Shown here: positions 2,272 to 63,160 of the stretch, one piece after another | Numbering within the stretch: position 1 is the stretch's first letter | How the letters are laid out: each line of letters opens with the position of its first letter | DNA from: Bacteroidota bacterium | GTDB lineage: Bacteria; Bacteroidota; Bacteroidia; NS11-12g; UBA9320 | Assembly (NCBI GenBank): GCA_947468275.1 | Contig: CANIKO010000005.1 | Coordinates: 124,001 to 188,000, forward strand | Length of the DNA: 64,000 nucleotides | Direction of reading: 5' to 3' | The notes under the pieces: generated by a model | What the model saw: only the letters and a program-made list of their open reading frames with translations | The model's database searches: none | Told to the model about the DNA's origin: nothing | Program-made: the position numbers and the translations under genes

Positions 2272-3336
2272 ATGATTCTCAACAAACAAATCCTTTATAA
2301 TTTAATGTTTGTTGCATTAGCTTTTGCATCGTGCAAACCTGATGAACCTGATACAATCGTAAAAAATCAAAAGAACGACACTGCTCTCATAAGCGTTTCC
2401 AGCGAAATGCCTCCGATTGTTAAATTTTCGGATAACCCAATAACCAAGGCGGGTTTGGATTTAGGGCGGTTTTTATTTTATGATACATTACTTTCACAAA
2501 ACAATACCATAAGCTGCGCCTCATGCCACAATCAGGCCATGGCTTTTACCGATAACAACAAAAAACTGAGTGAAGGAACTGTAAAACAATTGGGCACCCG
2601 CAATGCCATGCCCACCTTTAATTTAATGTGGTTTGATAGCTTGTTTTGGGATAGCCGAGCTTCACGCCTAAAGCAACTGGCTTTAATGCCTATCCAAAAT
2701 CCTTTGGAAATGAACACCACACCCGTGGCGGTGGTTGAAAAATTGAAATTATCAAGTCTTTATAAATTGAAATTTAAAAATGCTTTTGGCAGTGATACCA
2801 TTACGCCTGAAAGGATGGCTATGGCGTTGGAGCAATTTTTAATGTCAATAGTTTCTGATAATTCACGGTTTGACAAGTCAAAGCGAGGTGAACTAGCATT
2901 AACGCCTGAAGAAAACCGTGGCTTTGAAATTGCCGGCCAAAAAGGATGTTTCAATTGCCACAAAACCTCTTTGTTTACCGATAATTTATCGCACAATACC
3001 GGGCTTGATTTATATTTTACGGATAAAGGATTGGGCGGGTTTACCAAAAAATACAATCAGGAAGGAGAGTTTAAAACGCCTAGCCTGCGCAATGTGGCAC
3101 TCACTGCTCCGTATATGCACGATGGCCGGTTTGAAACCTTAGAAAAAGTGATTGAATTTTATGACCACGATGTTATTCCTAATCTAAATTCCCGAAATAT
3201 ATCCCGCACCTTTATTGAGCAAGCCACCCGCAATAGGATAAGCCAAGAGGATAGCAAAGCCTTAATTGCTTTTTTAAATTCGTTAACGGATTATGATATG
3301 GTGACCAATCCTAAATTTTCTAATCCGTTTAAATAA
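2272..3336 (+). CDS. di-haem cytochrome c peroxidase (MauG/CCP family), lipoprotein
   Basis: Predicted envelope peroxidase reducing H2O2 with electrons from a c-type cytochrome or donor. The 354-residue protein starts with a lipoprotein signal (FASC, Cys21, followed by acidic residues), so it is probably membrane-anchored. Two CxxCH haem sites are visible, CASCH near residue 81 and CFNCH near 225. The family stretch TPSLRNVALTAPYMHDGR is present near the C-terminus. I chose the ATG at 2272 because the upstream TTG at 2221 lies in the terminator hairpin and would bury the lipobox. Neighbours are secreted T9SS proteins; no maturation genes are nearby. Confidence 0.9.
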   Translation: MILNKQILYNLMFVALAFASCKPDEPDTIVKNQKNDTALISVSSEMPPIVKFSDNPITKAGLDLGRFLFYDTLLSQNNTISCASCHNQAMAFTDNNKKLSEGTVKQLGTRNAMPTFNLMWFDSLFWDSRASRLKQLALMPIQNPLEMNTTPVAVVEKLKLSSLYKLKFKNAFGSDTITPERMAMALEQFLMSIVSDNSRFDKSKRGELALTPEENRGFEIAGQKGCFNCHKTSLFTDNLSHNTGLDLYFTDKGLGGFTKKYNQEGEFKTPSLRNVALTAPYMHDGRFETLEKVIEFYDHDVIPNLNSRNISRTFIEQATRNRISQEDSKALIAFLNSLTDYDMVTNPKFSNPFK

Positions 3337-4581: not shown

Positions 4582-6675
4582 ATGAAAAAACAAGTACTTA
4601 AAAGTCGATTTATTAATCCCCCCCTTCAATCACGCGGATTTACAATAGGGGCTGTTTACTACAGAAGTTTAACTCTTAGCTTCTGCTTTTTATTTCTCTC
4701 TATGGTTTGTGTGCATGATGTATTTGGACAGTATACATATTCAACACCTGGGACCTATTTAATTGATGATAATGGTAATAATCCACCTACGGGATATGAT
4801 GATGGAATAACCATTGAAGTAGGGGTAACTCTTATCATCGAAAATCGTGAGGCAGGCTTGAATTTAGTTTTTAATAACAACAAAGGAATAACAGTAGATG
4901 CAGGGGCACACCTTATTGTAAGAAACTCAGTACTTGAAACCAGTACTTCTTACCAATGGAGTGGTATTTTAGTTAGTGGCGGTGGTAATGGTACGGAGCA
5001 GTATTTAGTTGCACCTTTAATCCCAGCAGTGCCGCTTGGCACTTCTACGGTTAATGAATGGGAAGGTGTTATAAATAATACGGATATGGGTTGGGTGGAA
5101 TTTTATGGGTCAACAATTATCAATTCTTCTACGGGAATAAAATCAACAAATGGTGGTGTAATATGGGTGGATGGAAAAAATTCAAACCAAGATGCCACAT
5201 TTTTAAATTGCAGAAATGGTGTACTAATTGAGCCTTATCTTTCAACCCAATGCCCCAATGTGAATGCTTGCCATATAATGCAAGCTGATTTTTTATGGGA
5301 TACCTATAATACAGTTATTGGTTATGGTATAAGGAAGGTTTTAACTGGTATTGAATTACAAGGGGTAAGAGGAATAAATATTGGAGGATGTAATTTCAAA
5401 AATACAATTAGTGGTCAATTTTGCTTAACTGACAGAGCTACAGGAATTAGGTCGTTAAGTTCTGATTTTACATTGTCCAAATCAGGAAATGCATTTAGTT
5501 ATGATGAACAAGGTTGCTTAGATAATTTTTATTTCAATTTAACTCCACCTCCAACAAGTCGTGGCAATACTTTTGAGCAGTTATCAACTGGAATTGAAAT
5601 AAAGTTAGACGCAGGAAACGGAAATTCTTATCGCAGTTTTAATTCTATCAGACATTCCACTTTTACGAATAATTTCAGTTCCATTGTTTCCGCAAACAGT
5701 AATTCTTTAATTGTCAATAAATGTTCTTTTACTGGTCAACGGAGTGTGATAAATGCTTTATTTGGCTTATTTATTTATGGAGTGAGTCCAGCAATAGGGT
5801 GTGAATTGGGTTATACCTCCACAGTTACAATTTGTGATATTGATGCAGTTGAAAGCTGTGGTGTTCGAATACTGGATAATACGTTCGAATTTGATAAAAG
5901 AAATATAAATCACATCAGAATAGTTGGTTCTGACATTTCACCTAATTATTCATCATTTATTAAAAAGAATACCTTTACAAACACATACCTCTCACTAGGC
6001 TCAGTTCACGCAATAAATAGCGATAATGTTAAGGCCATTGTATTGGATGGTGTTTGTACAAATTTAGATGTGACTTGTAATATATTTAATGACTTTGGAA
6101 ACGATATTTATATAGAGACAGCAGGAGTAGTTTCGGATTTTGTAACGGATGGTATTGTTTTAAAAGCACCAAGCAACACTCATTCATCAGCATTATCAGG
6201 ACGAGACCAGCTTTATAGTGCAAGCACGGTAATGTCCCCATATCCTGTATATAAAAGTAAGCTTGGTGGGGTATATGCACCGCCAGCTTCCGCTCGTTGG
6301 GTAACTTTATCCTCAGATTTTATTGATGAAATAGATTGCGACTATACTTGTACTGATTTATTGGATGGTTTGCCTGATCCAGAACCTTGTACTTTAGGCA
6401 CTGTAGCTAGAATAAGAACGATTCCATCCAATGTATTAAAAATTTATCCAAACCCAACATCAGGCGAGATTTATTTAGATATAGTATTTAGGGGGAGTGA
6501 CATGCATTATAATGTTCAGGTATTAAGTCTTGATGGCAAAGTAGTAAAAGAAATAGCAATTAAAGATTTAGGAAATAACAATTCTATAAGCTTTCATGAA
6601 CTTAAGGCAGGCCTATATTTGGTAAAGGTGGCAACTGCTAATTACAATTTATCAGGTAGGGTTCTTTTAAAATAA
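4582..6675 (+). CDS. large secreted protein with parallel beta-helix-like repeats and T9SS type A domain
   Basis: A 697-residue exported protein. An unusually long positively charged n-region precedes the hydrophobic signal core (about residues 30-50, ending VFGQ). The middle part has irregular Asn/Gly-rich repeats of the form NxFxNTxxG typical of right-handed beta-helices, with several Cys clusters (near residues 223, 415 and 590). The last 75 residues (LKIYPNPTSGEIYLDI to AGLYLVKVA) are a T9SS type A sorting domain. Only 5 nt separate it from the next gene, suggesting one transcript. The start at 4582 fits the promoter at 4507-4536. Confidence 0.82.
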   Translation: MKKQVLKSRFINPPLQSRGFTIGAVYYRSLTLSFCFLFLSMVCVHDVFGQYTYSTPGTYLIDDNGNNPPTGYDDGITIEVGVTLIIENREAGLNLVFNNNKGITVDAGAHLIVRNSVLETSTSYQWSGILVSGGGNGTEQYLVAPLIPAVPLGTSTVNEWEGVINNTDMGWVEFYGSTIINSSTGIKSTNGGVIWVDGKNSNQDATFLNCRNGVLIEPYLSTQCPNVNACHIMQADFLWDTYNTVIGYGIRKVLTGIELQGVRGINIGGCNFKNTISGQFCLTDRATGIRSLSSDFTLSKSGNAFSYDEQGCLDNFYFNLTPPPTSRGNTFEQLSTGIEIKLDAGNGNSYRSFNSIRHSTFTNNFSSIVSANSNSLIVNKCSFTGQRSVINALFGLFIYGVSPAIGCELGYTSTVTICDIDAVESCGVRILDNTFEFDKRNINHIRIVGSDISPNYSSFIKKNTFTNTYLSLGSVHAINSDNVKAIVLDGVCTNLDVTCNIFNDFGNDIYIETAGVVSDFVTDGIVLKAPSNTHSSALSGRDQLYSASTVMSPYPVYKSKLGGVYAPPASARWVTLSSDFIDEIDCDYTCTDLLDGLPDPEPCTLGTVARIRTIPSNVLKIYPNPTSGEIYLDIVFRGSDMHYNVQVLSLDGKVVKEIAIKDLGNNNSISFHELKAGLYLVKVATANYNLSGRVLLK

Positions 6676-59225: not shown

Positions 59226-59435
59226 ATGCAAACTCAAAAACAACCCAACTCCTTCCTAAAATATAGTGGTCTTGCTTTGCAAATGATAGGAACGCTTTTG
59301 CTGTTTACTTGGCTGGGCCGCAAAGGTGATACTTATTTCAAAACAAAAACTCCGTGGTTCATTATTTCGGCTATGTTGCTAGGCTTGGTTGGGATAATGT
59401 ATAAATTGATTAAGGATTTTTCGAAGAAGGGGTAA
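59226..59435 (+). CDS. AtpZ/AtpI-family membrane protein
   Basis: A 69-residue protein with two helices (about 12-32 and 40-62) separated by the charged hairpin GRKGDTYFKTKTPW, the AtpZ pattern. These proteins accompany the ATP synthase and may aid c-ring assembly or act as Mg/Ca transporters. In this window it is cut off from the AtpI-like gene and atpB by about 3.3 kb of accessory DNA. Confidence 0.85.
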   Translation: MQTQKQPNSFLKYSGLALQMIGTLLLFTWLGRKGDTYFKTKTPWFIISAMLLGLVGIMYKLIKDFSKKG

Positions 59436-59444
59436 ATTGCCGGA

Positions 59445-60068
59445 CTAAATCCCAGTATATGCTTCCCAGGCTGAACTGGCAGCGGAATGAAATAGAGCTT
59501 TGTCTGCATCATCATTTGAAAAATTCCCATCTTCTCCGATAGCATCGGCCCAAGCCTCTAGGTAAGCTAAAACATCTTCAAAGGCAACTTTCTTTACCTT
59601 GTTAGTTGAAATCATAAAAGAATGCCAAGGATCAAGAGCATTACTATATGCTCCTTCCCAGTAAAGACCGCTATTCATCCCAATTGCAACAGCACCTAAT
59701 AAAATTCTTGATTCTCTTGGTGTAAGTGATGAGCTAAAAATATCATCCTGAATACTACTGTAATATGGCTCAGGTGGATAACTGGGTTCAGTTAAAAGTT
59801 GCTCAAGGAAAATAAGTTGTTGCCCATTCCACCTAATATTTGTTTTGACAATATTTTTATCTACATACGAAGTGTTCATTGCAAGACCCGCAAGCATTTT
59901 ACAGTTACTATTAAATGCCGGTATAGTATTTACAAAATAATCCGACATATAATCCGCAATCATTTGCTGAAACTCATCTTCAGTAGGGTCAGCATTATGA
60001 GCAATGCAGTAGTCGAGTACATCATTATGAATTCTGCCAAGTTCGGTGTAGGGGTTAATTTGAGCCAT
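59445..60068 (-). CDS. hypothetical protein, divergent from a delta-60 cargo gene
   Basis: A 207-residue soluble protein without signal peptide or membrane helix. I use the ATG at 60068 (MAQINPYTELGRIHNDVLDY); an upstream TTG-type extension to 60113 adds a basic stretch of 15 residues. It is Asp/Glu/Tyr-rich, with segments SLTPRESRILLGAVAIGMNSGLYW and KVAFEDVLAYLEAWADAIGED. I do not recognise a family. It lies inside the insertion between AtpZ and the AtpI-like gene and is divergent from the propeller gene. Confidence 0.7.
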   Translation of the reverse strand: MAQINPYTELGRIHNDVLDYCIAHNADPTEDEFQQMIADYMSDYFVNTIPAFNSNCKMLAGLAMNTSYVDKNIVKTNIRWNGQQLIFLEQLLTEPSYPPEPYYSSIQDDIFSSSLTPRESRILLGAVAIGMNSGLYWEGAYSNALDPWHSFMISTNKVKKVAFEDVLAYLEAWADAIGEDGNFSNDDADKALFHSAASSAWEAYTGI

Positions 60069-60215
60069 AGTTTTATAATTTTGATAACAAACTTTTTTTT
60101 TACGCAAAATCAAAGCATTGTTAATAACTTTTTATTATTTAGAATTCAAATTAGAAATTTGTTTTTAGCAATTTGAATAAATTTGAATACTATTTTATTT
60201 AAAATCAATAACGGC

Positions 60216-61778
60216 ATGAAGAGAATTTGGATTATCTTAATAAATTTGGTTATTTTATCCTCTAAAATTTACTCTCAACCCGGATCATTAGATAATACCT
60301 TTGGTAATAAAGGGATTTTAATAGAATCTGTAGGGAAAGGAAGTGATTACGGAAAAGCAGTTTCCTTAAATAAAGATGGTAAAATAATATTGGCCGGTTA
60401 TAGTCACAATGGAACAAATTATGACTTTGTCTTAGCACAATTTAAGGAGAACGGAACCTTTGATAGCAGTTTTGGTATAAATGGATTTACCACTGTTGCT
60501 ATAGGTTCTGACAATGATTATGCTTATACTTTAGCTTTACAACCAGATGGTAAAATTCTAATGGCAGGTGCTTCAAAAAATGTCTCAGATTATGATTTTT
60601 CATTAGCAAGATTTAATTTTAATGGAAGTTTGGATACTAGTTTTAGTAAGGATGGGAAGTTGACATTATCTTTTGGTTCAATGGATGATGTTGCCTACTC
60701 AATTGCGGTGCAAGCAGACAATAAAATTGTAGCCGCCGGATTAACAAAAACTAGTATCGGGGAGAGTTTTGCCCTTGCAAGATTTCTTTCCAATGGAACA
60801 ATTGATACAAGTTTTAGTAATGATGGAAAACTTACTACATCTTTTGGTACGAATTTTATAGATGAAGGAATATCGATGGCTATTCAAAAGGATAATAAAA
60901 TCTTAGTAGGAGGCAACACAGGCCCTTCATCTATTTCCTACTTTGGTTTAGTAAGATATTTATCCAATGGAAGTTTAGATACCGCTTTTAGCAACGATGG
61001 ATTGTTAACTACTGATTTTGGAAATAAGGCCTATTTACGTGCTATTGCAATTCAATCAGATGACAAAATAGTAGCTTCTGGAACTGTATTTAATGGTGTT
61101 ACCTACGACTTTGGTTTAGTAAGATATAATAAGAATGGTTCAATTGATAATAGTTTTGATAATGATGGCAAAATAATTACTTCAATTAGTGATGGCGAGG
61201 GCACAGATGGTGCTTATGCTATTGTAATACAAACTGATGGAAGAATAATTTTGGCTGGTGATGCTCAAGTCGGAAATGGTTTTCAAATTGGGATGATTAG
61301 GTACAATAAAAATGGGTCTGTTGATACAGATTTTGGAACTGATGGTATTGTAAGGACAAATGTTTATGGGAAAAATGATAAGCCTTATAGCATTGCTTTA
61401 CAATCCGATGGTAAAATTATTTTGGGAGGCTATACTTATAACGGAACAGATTATGATTTAGTGTTAGCTAGGTATATTGGGGGAGATAATATCGGAATTA
61501 TAGACTTTTCTGTTTCTAAATATTCGGTATTAATTTATCCTAATCCTATTTTTCAGAGTTTAACTTTAGAATACACCTTAAAAAGTGAAGAAGAAATCTC
61601 GATTCAATTCTTAGATATGCAAGGCAAACTTGTAAAGACATTCACAAATAAAGAAAAGCAATCCGCCGGTAAATATGAGAAGACTTTTTGTTTTCCTGAG
61701 AACGTAGAATGCGGGAATTATATTCTTAATATTTCTTCACCCAATGGGCAGTTAAGTTTAAAAATAGTAAAGCAATAA
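60216..61778 (+). CDS. delta-60 repeat beta-propeller protein with T9SS-type C-terminus
   Basis: A 520-residue exported protein. The ATG at 60216 gives a clean signal peptide (MKRIWIILINLVILSSKIYS); the TTG at 60183 only adds a polar leader. About eight delta-60 repeats follow (SLDNTFGNKGIL, LNKDGKIILAGYSHNGTNYDFVLAQF and similar). The C-terminus has VLIYPNPIFQSLTLEY and ECGNYILNISS, a type A-like sorting domain. It is a paralog of the 49154-50683 protein, with the same repeat design and length. It is part of the accessory block in the atp locus. Confidence 0.86.
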   Translation: MKRIWIILINLVILSSKIYSQPGSLDNTFGNKGILIESVGKGSDYGKAVSLNKDGKIILAGYSHNGTNYDFVLAQFKENGTFDSSFGINGFTTVAIGSDNDYAYTLALQPDGKILMAGASKNVSDYDFSLARFNFNGSLDTSFSKDGKLTLSFGSMDDVAYSIAVQADNKIVAAGLTKTSIGESFALARFLSNGTIDTSFSNDGKLTTSFGTNFIDEGISMAIQKDNKILVGGNTGPSSISYFGLVRYLSNGSLDTAFSNDGLLTTDFGNKAYLRAIAIQSDDKIVASGTVFNGVTYDFGLVRYNKNGSIDNSFDNDGKIITSISDGEGTDGAYAIVIQTDGRIILAGDAQVGNGFQIGMIRYNKNGSVDTDFGTDGIVRTNVYGKNDKPYSIALQSDGKIILGGYTYNGTDYDLVLARYIGGDNIGIIDFSVSKYSVLIYPNPIFQSLTLEYTLKSEEEISIQFLDMQGKLVKTFTNKEKQSAGKYEKTFCFPENVECGNYILNISSPNGQLSLKIVKQ

Positions 61779-61810
61779 ATCATTTCTTTAACAAACAGTT
61801 CTCAACACAA

Positions 61811-61841
61811 TTTGCCAATTAGCATCATCCTCTTACCTTTG
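61811..61841 (+). promoter_or_regulatory. promoter of the Bro-N gene (duplicated copy)
   Basis: TTTG (61811-61814), 19 nt, TACCTTTG (61834-61841). Complete consensus. Nearly identical to the promoter at 62725-62755. Confidence 0.65.
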
Positions 61842-61878
61842 CCCCTCCAATTCCCTATGTCAAAATTTGTATCTTAAC
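61811..61878 (+). repeat. 68-bp direct repeat, copy 1
   Basis: Matches 62725-62792 with 10 differences in 68 positions, and only 5 in the first 58. It carries the promoter plus the start ATGTCAAAATTT, which here runs into a stop after six codons. Confidence 0.85.
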
Positions 61879-61879
61879 T

Positions 61880-62704
61880 ATGAGTAATATAAAATTATTT
61901 GAAACCAAAAAGGTACGCAGCCATTGGGATGGAGAAAAAGAAACATGGTATTTTTCGGTTATTGATGTTATTGAAATATTAACCGATAGTCCTCGACCGA
62001 GGAAATATTGGAGTGCCTTAAAAACCAAGTTGCAAAGTGAAGGGAGTGAACTGTCCCAAAAATTGGGACAGTTGAAAATGGCCGCCGAAGATGGGAAAAT
62101 GCGGGAAACAGATGTAGCAGATACTGAAACCCTACTTCGTATTATTCAATCCATTCCTTCGCCCAAAGCTGAACCTTTTAAACAATGGCTGGCAAAAGTA
62201 GGCTACGAGCGAATGCAGGAAATAGCGGACCCAAGCCAAAGTATAGATAGAGCCAGAGAGAACTGGCAAAAATTGGGACGTTCTGAAAAATGGATTCAGC
62301 AGCGCATGACTGGGCAGGAAACGAGAAATAAACTTACAGATTATTGGAAAGAAAGTGGGGTGGAAAAATCGGATGAGTTTGCTTTGCTTACAAATATTAT
62401 CCATCAGGAATGGACCGGGTTAACGGTAAAAAAACACAAAGATTTAAAAGGCTTAAAATCGCAAAACCTAAGAGACCACATGAGCGAAGCCGAATTGATT
62501 TTCACAGCCTTGGCAGAACTATCCACTCGCCAAATAGCCGAAACTGATGAAGCAAAAGGATTGCAAGAAAACGCAAAGGCAAGCAAAAAAGGAGGAAAAA
62601 TAGCCAAAGATGCCCGATTGAAACTGGAACAACAAACCGGAAAAAAAGTGGTAACGGGAGAAAATTTTTTACCACCAACAAAAGAAAAAAAGAAATTGAA
62701 TTAA
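61880..62704 (+). CDS. Bro-N domain protein (phage-antirepressor-like family)
   Basis: A 274-residue protein. The N-terminal Bro-N domain (about 5-110) has IKLFETKKVRSHWDGEKETW, YFSVIDVIEILTDSPRPRKYW and the ADTETLLRIIQSIPSPKAEPFKQWLA block. The second half (GRSEKWIQQRMTGQETRNKLTDYW, HKDLKGLKSQNLRDHMS) is the helical region conserved in this bacterial/archaeal Bro-N group. Such proteins are thought to bind DNA and are common cargo of phages and mobile DNA. The gene lies between two copies of a 68-bp repeat derived from the next gene's promoter and start, so it looks like an insertion. Confidence 0.88.
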   Translation: MSNIKLFETKKVRSHWDGEKETWYFSVIDVIEILTDSPRPRKYWSALKTKLQSEGSELSQKLGQLKMAAEDGKMRETDVADTETLLRIIQSIPSPKAEPFKQWLAKVGYERMQEIADPSQSIDRARENWQKLGRSEKWIQQRMTGQETRNKLTDYWKESGVEKSDEFALLTNIIHQEWTGLTVKKHKDLKGLKSQNLRDHMSEAELIFTALAELSTRQIAETDEAKGLQENAKASKKGGKIAKDARLKLEQQTGKKVVTGENFLPPTKEKKKLN

Positions 62705-62724
62705 ACGCTAATTAATTGCAATTG

Positions 62725-62755
62725 TTTGCCATTTAACCTCATCCCCTTACCTTTG
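62725..62755 (+). promoter_or_regulatory. promoter of the AtpI-like/atp operon
   Basis: TTTG (62725-62728), 19 nt, TACCTTTG (62748-62755); the ATG follows at 62771. Complete consensus. Confidence 0.65.
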
Positions 62756-62792
62756 CCCCTCCAATTACCTATGTCAAAATTTTATACTCAAC
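62725..62792 (+). repeat. 68-bp direct repeat, copy 2
   Basis: The functional copy: promoter, leader and first codons of the AtpI-like gene. It starts 914 nt after copy 1. Confidence 0.85.
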
Positions 62793-63160
62793 TTTTATTA
62801 ATAACCCTTGTTTGCGGAGCTATTCTCTTTAGTTCTGATCTAACAGGTTTTACCCATATCGGCTTTATCGGCTGGATAGCTTTAGTTTTTTTTGCATTGC
62901 TTACTACAGTGCTTACCAATATGTCGTTAAAGTCGGCAGCCAAAAGCGGCTCGCGGTTTGTTACCGGCGTAATGGGCGGGGTAGGCTTGCGAATGATGTT
63001 CTGTGTTTTGTTCGTAGTTGTTTATTGGGTAACCGCCAAAGAACGGGACACATTTTTCATCATTTATTTTTTTATTTTATATTTATTTTTCACAGTATTT
63101 GAAATTCAGTTTTTACTACATAAATTGCGCACCGATAAAAAGGATGGCCTTGAATCTTAA
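62771..63160 (+). CDS. AtpI-like small membrane protein of the ATP synthase operon
   Basis: A 129-residue protein with four helices (about 5-22, 27-48, 69-90 and 95-118) and a Lys/Arg-rich C-terminus. Position directly before atpB (31 nt) and size fit the poorly conserved AtpI-like protein of Bacteroidota atp operons. I use the ATG at 62771, the one placed 15 nt after the -7 box; an upstream in-frame ATG at 62726 lies inside the promoter. The assignment rests more on context than on sequence. Confidence 0.75.
   Translation: MSKFYTQLLLITLVCGAILFSSDLTGFTHIGFIGWIALVFFALLTTVLTNMSLKSAAKSGSRFVTGVMGGVGLRMMFCVLFVVVYWVTAKERDTFFIIYFFILYLFFTVFEIQFLLHKLRTDKKDGLES

Follow-up and report, generated by a model that had tools for sequence, protein, structure and literature searches.

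A solitary Bro-N gene between direct repeats of a host promoter suggests single-gene spread with long target duplications and no transposase

Introduction

Restriction-modification genes are known to insert with long target duplication (Nobusato et al. 2000, Gene 259:99, cited in PMC3874152, PMC3031569 and PMC1643837), as reportedly also described by Furuta et al. in 2010. The Bro-N locus described here resembles these cases in lacking a transposase, in its long direct duplications, which are variable in length and of the order of 100 bp, and in the existence of a relative with one copy, but differs in that the cargo is a solitary Bro-N gene rather than a restriction-modification system and in that the hosts are mostly Bacteroidota. 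Transposed genes with flanking repeats are also found in Arabidopsis, where the authors discuss excision of a circle and recombination between the repeats (PMC2869330). These are plant genes, but they share with the Bro-N loci the movement of non-transposon genes, direct target repeats and the restriction of such repeats to a similar minority of cases. A search of the literature for long target duplication around Bro-N genes returned no report. This kind of gene mobility is known, while a solitary Bro-N gene as its cargo appears to be new.

The Bro-N protein and its predicted fold

The window, i.e. the whole 64-kb stretch of DNA that was analysed (G000:C5:124001-188000), harbors a Bro-N gene (61880..62704; plus strand), the 274 amino acid product of which is predicted by Pfam, PADLOC and AlphaFold to comprise a Bro-N domain and a helical C-terminal domain. 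The translated product matches Pfam PF02498 above the curated cut-off of 25.6 (Bitscore: 41.5; e-value: 2e-10) and, over its full length (residues 2-272), the PADLOC model PDC-S13 (Bitscore: 425.8; e-value: 1.8e-128), a candidate defence model on which no paper was found in the literature. It differs from Escherichia coli DinD, reaching only 24 bits against the cut-off of 242 for the NCBIfam DinD equivalog NF008573. The dN/dS value against locus L052 is approximately 0.04, which is rough given a dS of approximately 1.1, and suggests that strong purifying selection acts on the family and that the gene is not decaying.

A sequence profile search for a solved relative of the Bro-N product yielded nothing convincing. 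Structure prediction from the single sequence was unusable (pLDDT: 41), and an AlphaFold model based on a 35-sequence alignment (pLDDT: 86.7) was used instead. This model aligns with three PDB entries of Deinococcus radiodurans DdrC (7udi, 8u0g and 7qvb; VIA-align Z: 15.2, 15.1 and 12.9), the alignment with a Z of 15.2 covering 217 residues, almost the entire protein, at an rmsd of 11.1, while unrelated folds score 6.5 or below, the next of them after DdrC at 6.5. Foldseek furthermore relates the model to DdrC with an e-value of 6e-7. The Bro-N product differs from DdrC in sharing only 14% identity with it, and in the large rmsd, which presumably stems from a different arrangement of the domains. 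The modelled structure thus points to the overall fold of Deinococcus DdrC for the Bro-N/PDC-S13 family.

A duplicated promoter and gene start at the ATP-synthase locus

The Bro-N gene is flanked by two direct repeats on the plus strand, copy 1 (61811..61878) and copy 2 (62725..62792), which are identical at 58 of 68 positions without gaps and at 53 of 58 in the core; once gaps are allowed, the aligned similarity reaches approximately 61889/62803. The ungapped flank score of the locus is 43, as opposed to a maximum of 13 among 800 mispaired flank pairs, and the repeat is thus beyond chance. Copy 1 comprises a promoter, a leader and the truncated start of the membrane protein gene in the AtpI position, a region present as a single copy in G005, while copy 2 comprises a promoter together with the beginning of the intact gene (62771..63160; plus strand), which is followed by atpB and has orthologs in 27 of 39 relatives.

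Both copies contain a putative promoter of the Bacteroidota type, with a -33 TTTG (61811-61814 in copy 1; at 62725 in copy 2), a spacer of 19 and a -7 TACCTTTG (61834-61841 and 62748-62755, respectively); TTTG-N19-TACCTTTG and ATGTCAAAATTT are retained in both. Within the 64-kb window only four occurrences of TTTG-N19-TANNTTTG were found when both strands were searched. At the orthologous site, the -7 TACCTTTG recurs in all four of G005, G004, G006 and G003, but the -33 does not recur in every one of them, which gives the element the look of a conserved promoter core. The start codons are located at 61857 in copy 1 and 62771 in copy 2. A 1-nt insertion after AAATTT in copy 1, relative to copy 2, shifts the frame into a dead-end mini-ORF (MSKFVS and a stop codon; 61857..61877; plus strand), which stops 2 nt before the ATG of Bro-N. 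At the opposite end, a 20 bp spacer (62705..62724; plus strand) separates the Bro-N stop codon from copy 2, and the homologs show no similarity beyond approximately 62705.

Bro-N is the sole gene between the copies; in the window, no transposase or integrase was found between them and no inverted pair at the ends of the insert. The preliminary description of this DNA, which had reported direct repeats with TTTG-N19 in both, a start in copy 1 that stops after six codons beside an intact copy 2, the Bro-N gene between them and no visible transposase, is borne out on these points. It had further named wide dispersal of the repeat as an observation that would speak against its reading; a search of G000 returned just the two copies and one 21-bp match to the promoter core, and a dispersed repeat is thus ruled out.

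Neither Pfam nor NCBIfam yields a match for the 'AtpI-like' gene, which owes its name to its location between AtpZ (PF09527) and AtpB (PF00119). The AtpZ-type gene, identified by Pfam (59226..59435; plus strand), forms the left border of the ATP-synthase locus, and in G001, G002, G003 and G006 it lies directly upstream of the AtpI-position gene with no insert. The gap between the two genes (59436-61810) is a variable spot among the relatives. Its contents in G000 are a 207 amino acid minus-strand ORF without a family, a delta-60 repeat T9SS protein and Bro-N, while in G004 and G005 it contains a minus-strand gene for an ExeM-like T9SS nuclease of 968-969 amino acids, no full-length copy of which was found in G000.

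The empty site in relatives and the age of the copies

In the nearest genomes of the same genus, G005 and G004, the promoter is present once and Bro-N is missing from the locus, which corresponds to the empty site envisaged in the preliminary description. The AtpI-position protein of G005 is 89% identical to that of G000, and no Bro-N homolog was found anywhere in the G005 genome. The single copy and the lack of Bro-N in both relatives suggest that the gene and the second repeat copy were gained in the G000 lineage. We suggest that the Bro-N gene probably arrived by insertion with long target duplication in the promoter/start region of the AtpI-position gene.

Alignments of the 58-bp core show five differences between the two copies and four between either copy and G005. 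The copies thus differ mutually about as much as from G005, so that they need not be sisters; the duplication may date back to roughly the time of the split from G005, or copy 1 may have come from outside. The earlier claim of an insertion that duplicated a host promoter is consequently strengthened by the single copy in Bro-N-free relatives, but qualified by this divergence. Furthermore, as the left flanks differ, with the ExeM-like nuclease gene in G004 and G005 and two other genes in G000, the original left junction is not visible.

The main rival explanation, which we consider unlikely, is a Campbell-type single crossover, in which a circular molecule with Bro-N and some short promoter homology would have recombined into the locus, copy 1 being imported from a related species. 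Such an import would account for the fact that the copies resemble each other no more than they resemble G005, but it needs a donor in which Bro-N was already joined to the AtpI-position promoter, and none was seen. The age of the copies would also suit a tandem duplication of the promoter/start region that came first, with Bro-N landing between the copies later. This order of events is very improbable, since no relative with the duplication and without Bro-N was seen among those compared, and the recurrence of repeats around Bro-N genes described below would demand many coincidences.

Flanking repeats at other Bro-N loci

Homologs of the Bro-N gene, many of them broken, are scattered over 83 of 295 genomes of the class, and homologous proteins with 67-93% amino acid identity are found across phyla. 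Similarity at the DNA level starts and stops at the ORF boundaries, or at most tens of bases away from them. Phages or plasmids as the usual vehicle are unsupported, as the Bro-N homologs found there share less than 60% identity.

Direct repeats with an e-value below 1e-6 were sought in the 400-bp flanks of Bro-N loci and of ordinary ORFs on the same contigs. They flank 17 of 101 Bro-N loci, compared to 7/167 ordinary ORFs (Fisher p=6e-4), one of which reads as a KilA-N gene; with an earlier, smaller set of ORFs the counts were 19/101 and 5/92, respectively. The background of 4% among ordinary ORFs comprises tandem paralogs and terminators, and approximately 80% of the Bro-N loci have no detectable flanking repeat. 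At least six of the 17 repeats at Bro-N loci are intergenic rather than gene ends. Intergenic repeats are observed at L065, L081, L093, L108, L121, L055 and L034 and may have other causes. At L065 a third, partial copy lies upstream (approximately 3123-3213, 4634-4896 and 6004-6265), and these repeats could be an integron-like cassette array. The 53-bp repeat of L108 adjoins what reads from its sequence as a tRNA 3′ end and terminator, a target of the integrase type, as would be expected if a decayed site-specific integrase element had left att-like repeats. For the Bro-N gene of the window this origin is hardly likely at all: the copies do not enclose an integrase, the window contains no tRNA, the repeats of different loci have no core in common, and those that are clearest extend over gene ends.

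In the clearest cases, one end of a neighbouring gene is duplicated, with the intact gene on one side. At L132 the duplicated segment is the 5′ end of rmuC (116 bp), with 8 and 2 bp separating the repeats from Bro-N; copy 1 abuts the stop codon of the upstream gene, and the second copy starts 2 bp past that of Bro-N. At L075 a glycosidase-like gene has its promoter and 5′ end duplicated, while 3′ ends are duplicated for the genes encoding VanZ (L067), an isochorismatase (L094) and an S24 repressor (L123) and for an aminotransferase-like gene (L036). In all six loci, as in the window, the duplicated gene is co-directional with Bro-N. The proposal that other Bro-N genes would be flanked by duplicated host promoters therefore stands in so far as gene ends are duplicated at unrelated loci, but the 3′ end is involved at least as often as the promoter/start. 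The Bro-N gene of L132 lies within a row of DUF3584, DUF7281 and RmuC genes (L132 80-3521), possibly a defence operon.

An empty site is also present for rmuC, as G284, of the same genus as L132, has a single rmuC start and no adjacent Bro-N gene. The copies of L132 share 85% amino acid identity with each other and 53% with the nearest relatives, and those of L036 share 87% and 52-58%, respectively, which is consistent with local duplication. This grouping of the copies against the relatives argues against a single crossover, as does the lack of relation between the sites in different genomes. The repeats of L067 are, however, mosaic, with approximately 100 near-identical bases beside a diverged part, as such a crossover could leave.

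Flanking repeats in other solitary gene families

The same test found flanking repeats around RhuM (4/24; p=0.03) and AAA_14 genes (6/28; p=0.004), each p value being taken singly, while KilA-N (2/24) and Fic (2/26) are indistinguishable from the background. A scar special to Bro-N is ruled out by the RhuM and AAA_14 counts, which also exceed the background and equal or surpass the Bro-N rate. The AAA_14 repeats are mostly intergenic, the clearest Fic case reads as hsdS, and gene-end duplications were seen mainly in the Bro-N and RhuM sets, at small numbers. The scar thus appears to reflect the mode of arrival of such genes, and not that of Bro-N alone.

A KilA-N-like gene near another Bro-N locus (L057 2294-3121) lies between 130-bp direct repeats with 83% identity. 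Furthermore, the repeats around a KilA-N gene and a RhuM gene in two different genomes (L173 and L197) resemble each other in a CCAACCATTTA-GCTTAT-GTTG core, which may be an element that they have in common.

Proposed mechanism and implications

Under insertion with long target duplication, a near-bare Bro-N ORF would have entered the AtpI-position gene at its promoter/start region, leaving approximately 60-80 bp of the target duplicated on both sides. We infer that insertion and duplication were simultaneous, and that the long duplication would stem from a staggered break or from paired nicks, with fill-in on either side of the captured gene. Through copy 2 the AtpI-position gene would retain its promoter and start, so that the essential locus is not broken, while copy 1 would place a promoter and the six-codon mini-ORF, with its stop-start junction, ahead of Bro-N. 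As the 5′ cases leave a host promoter or start before the new gene, expression of Bro-N from copy 1, and with it a takeover of host expression, is plausible.

DdrC is reported to hold nicked or broken DNA. By analogy, the DdrC-like Bro-N protein might keep hold of such DNA and so make it easier for its own gene to be captured at paired nicks, a suggestion that we regard as highly doubtful. If true, Bro-N would represent a mobile element made up of a single gene, which leaves long target duplications, has no transposase and is helped by its own protein.

These loci bear on the question of how single accessory or defence genes spread without a recombinase, and suggest that Bro-N spreads as a single gene, leaving long target duplications and using no transposase. 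As natural insertions whose scars can be seen, they open target choice, duplication length and the intermediate to testing. They would furthermore illustrate how a gene may enter essential operons without breakage, as the gene that was interrupted is restored by the duplication, which in the 5′ cases also sets a host promoter or start ahead of the newcomer.
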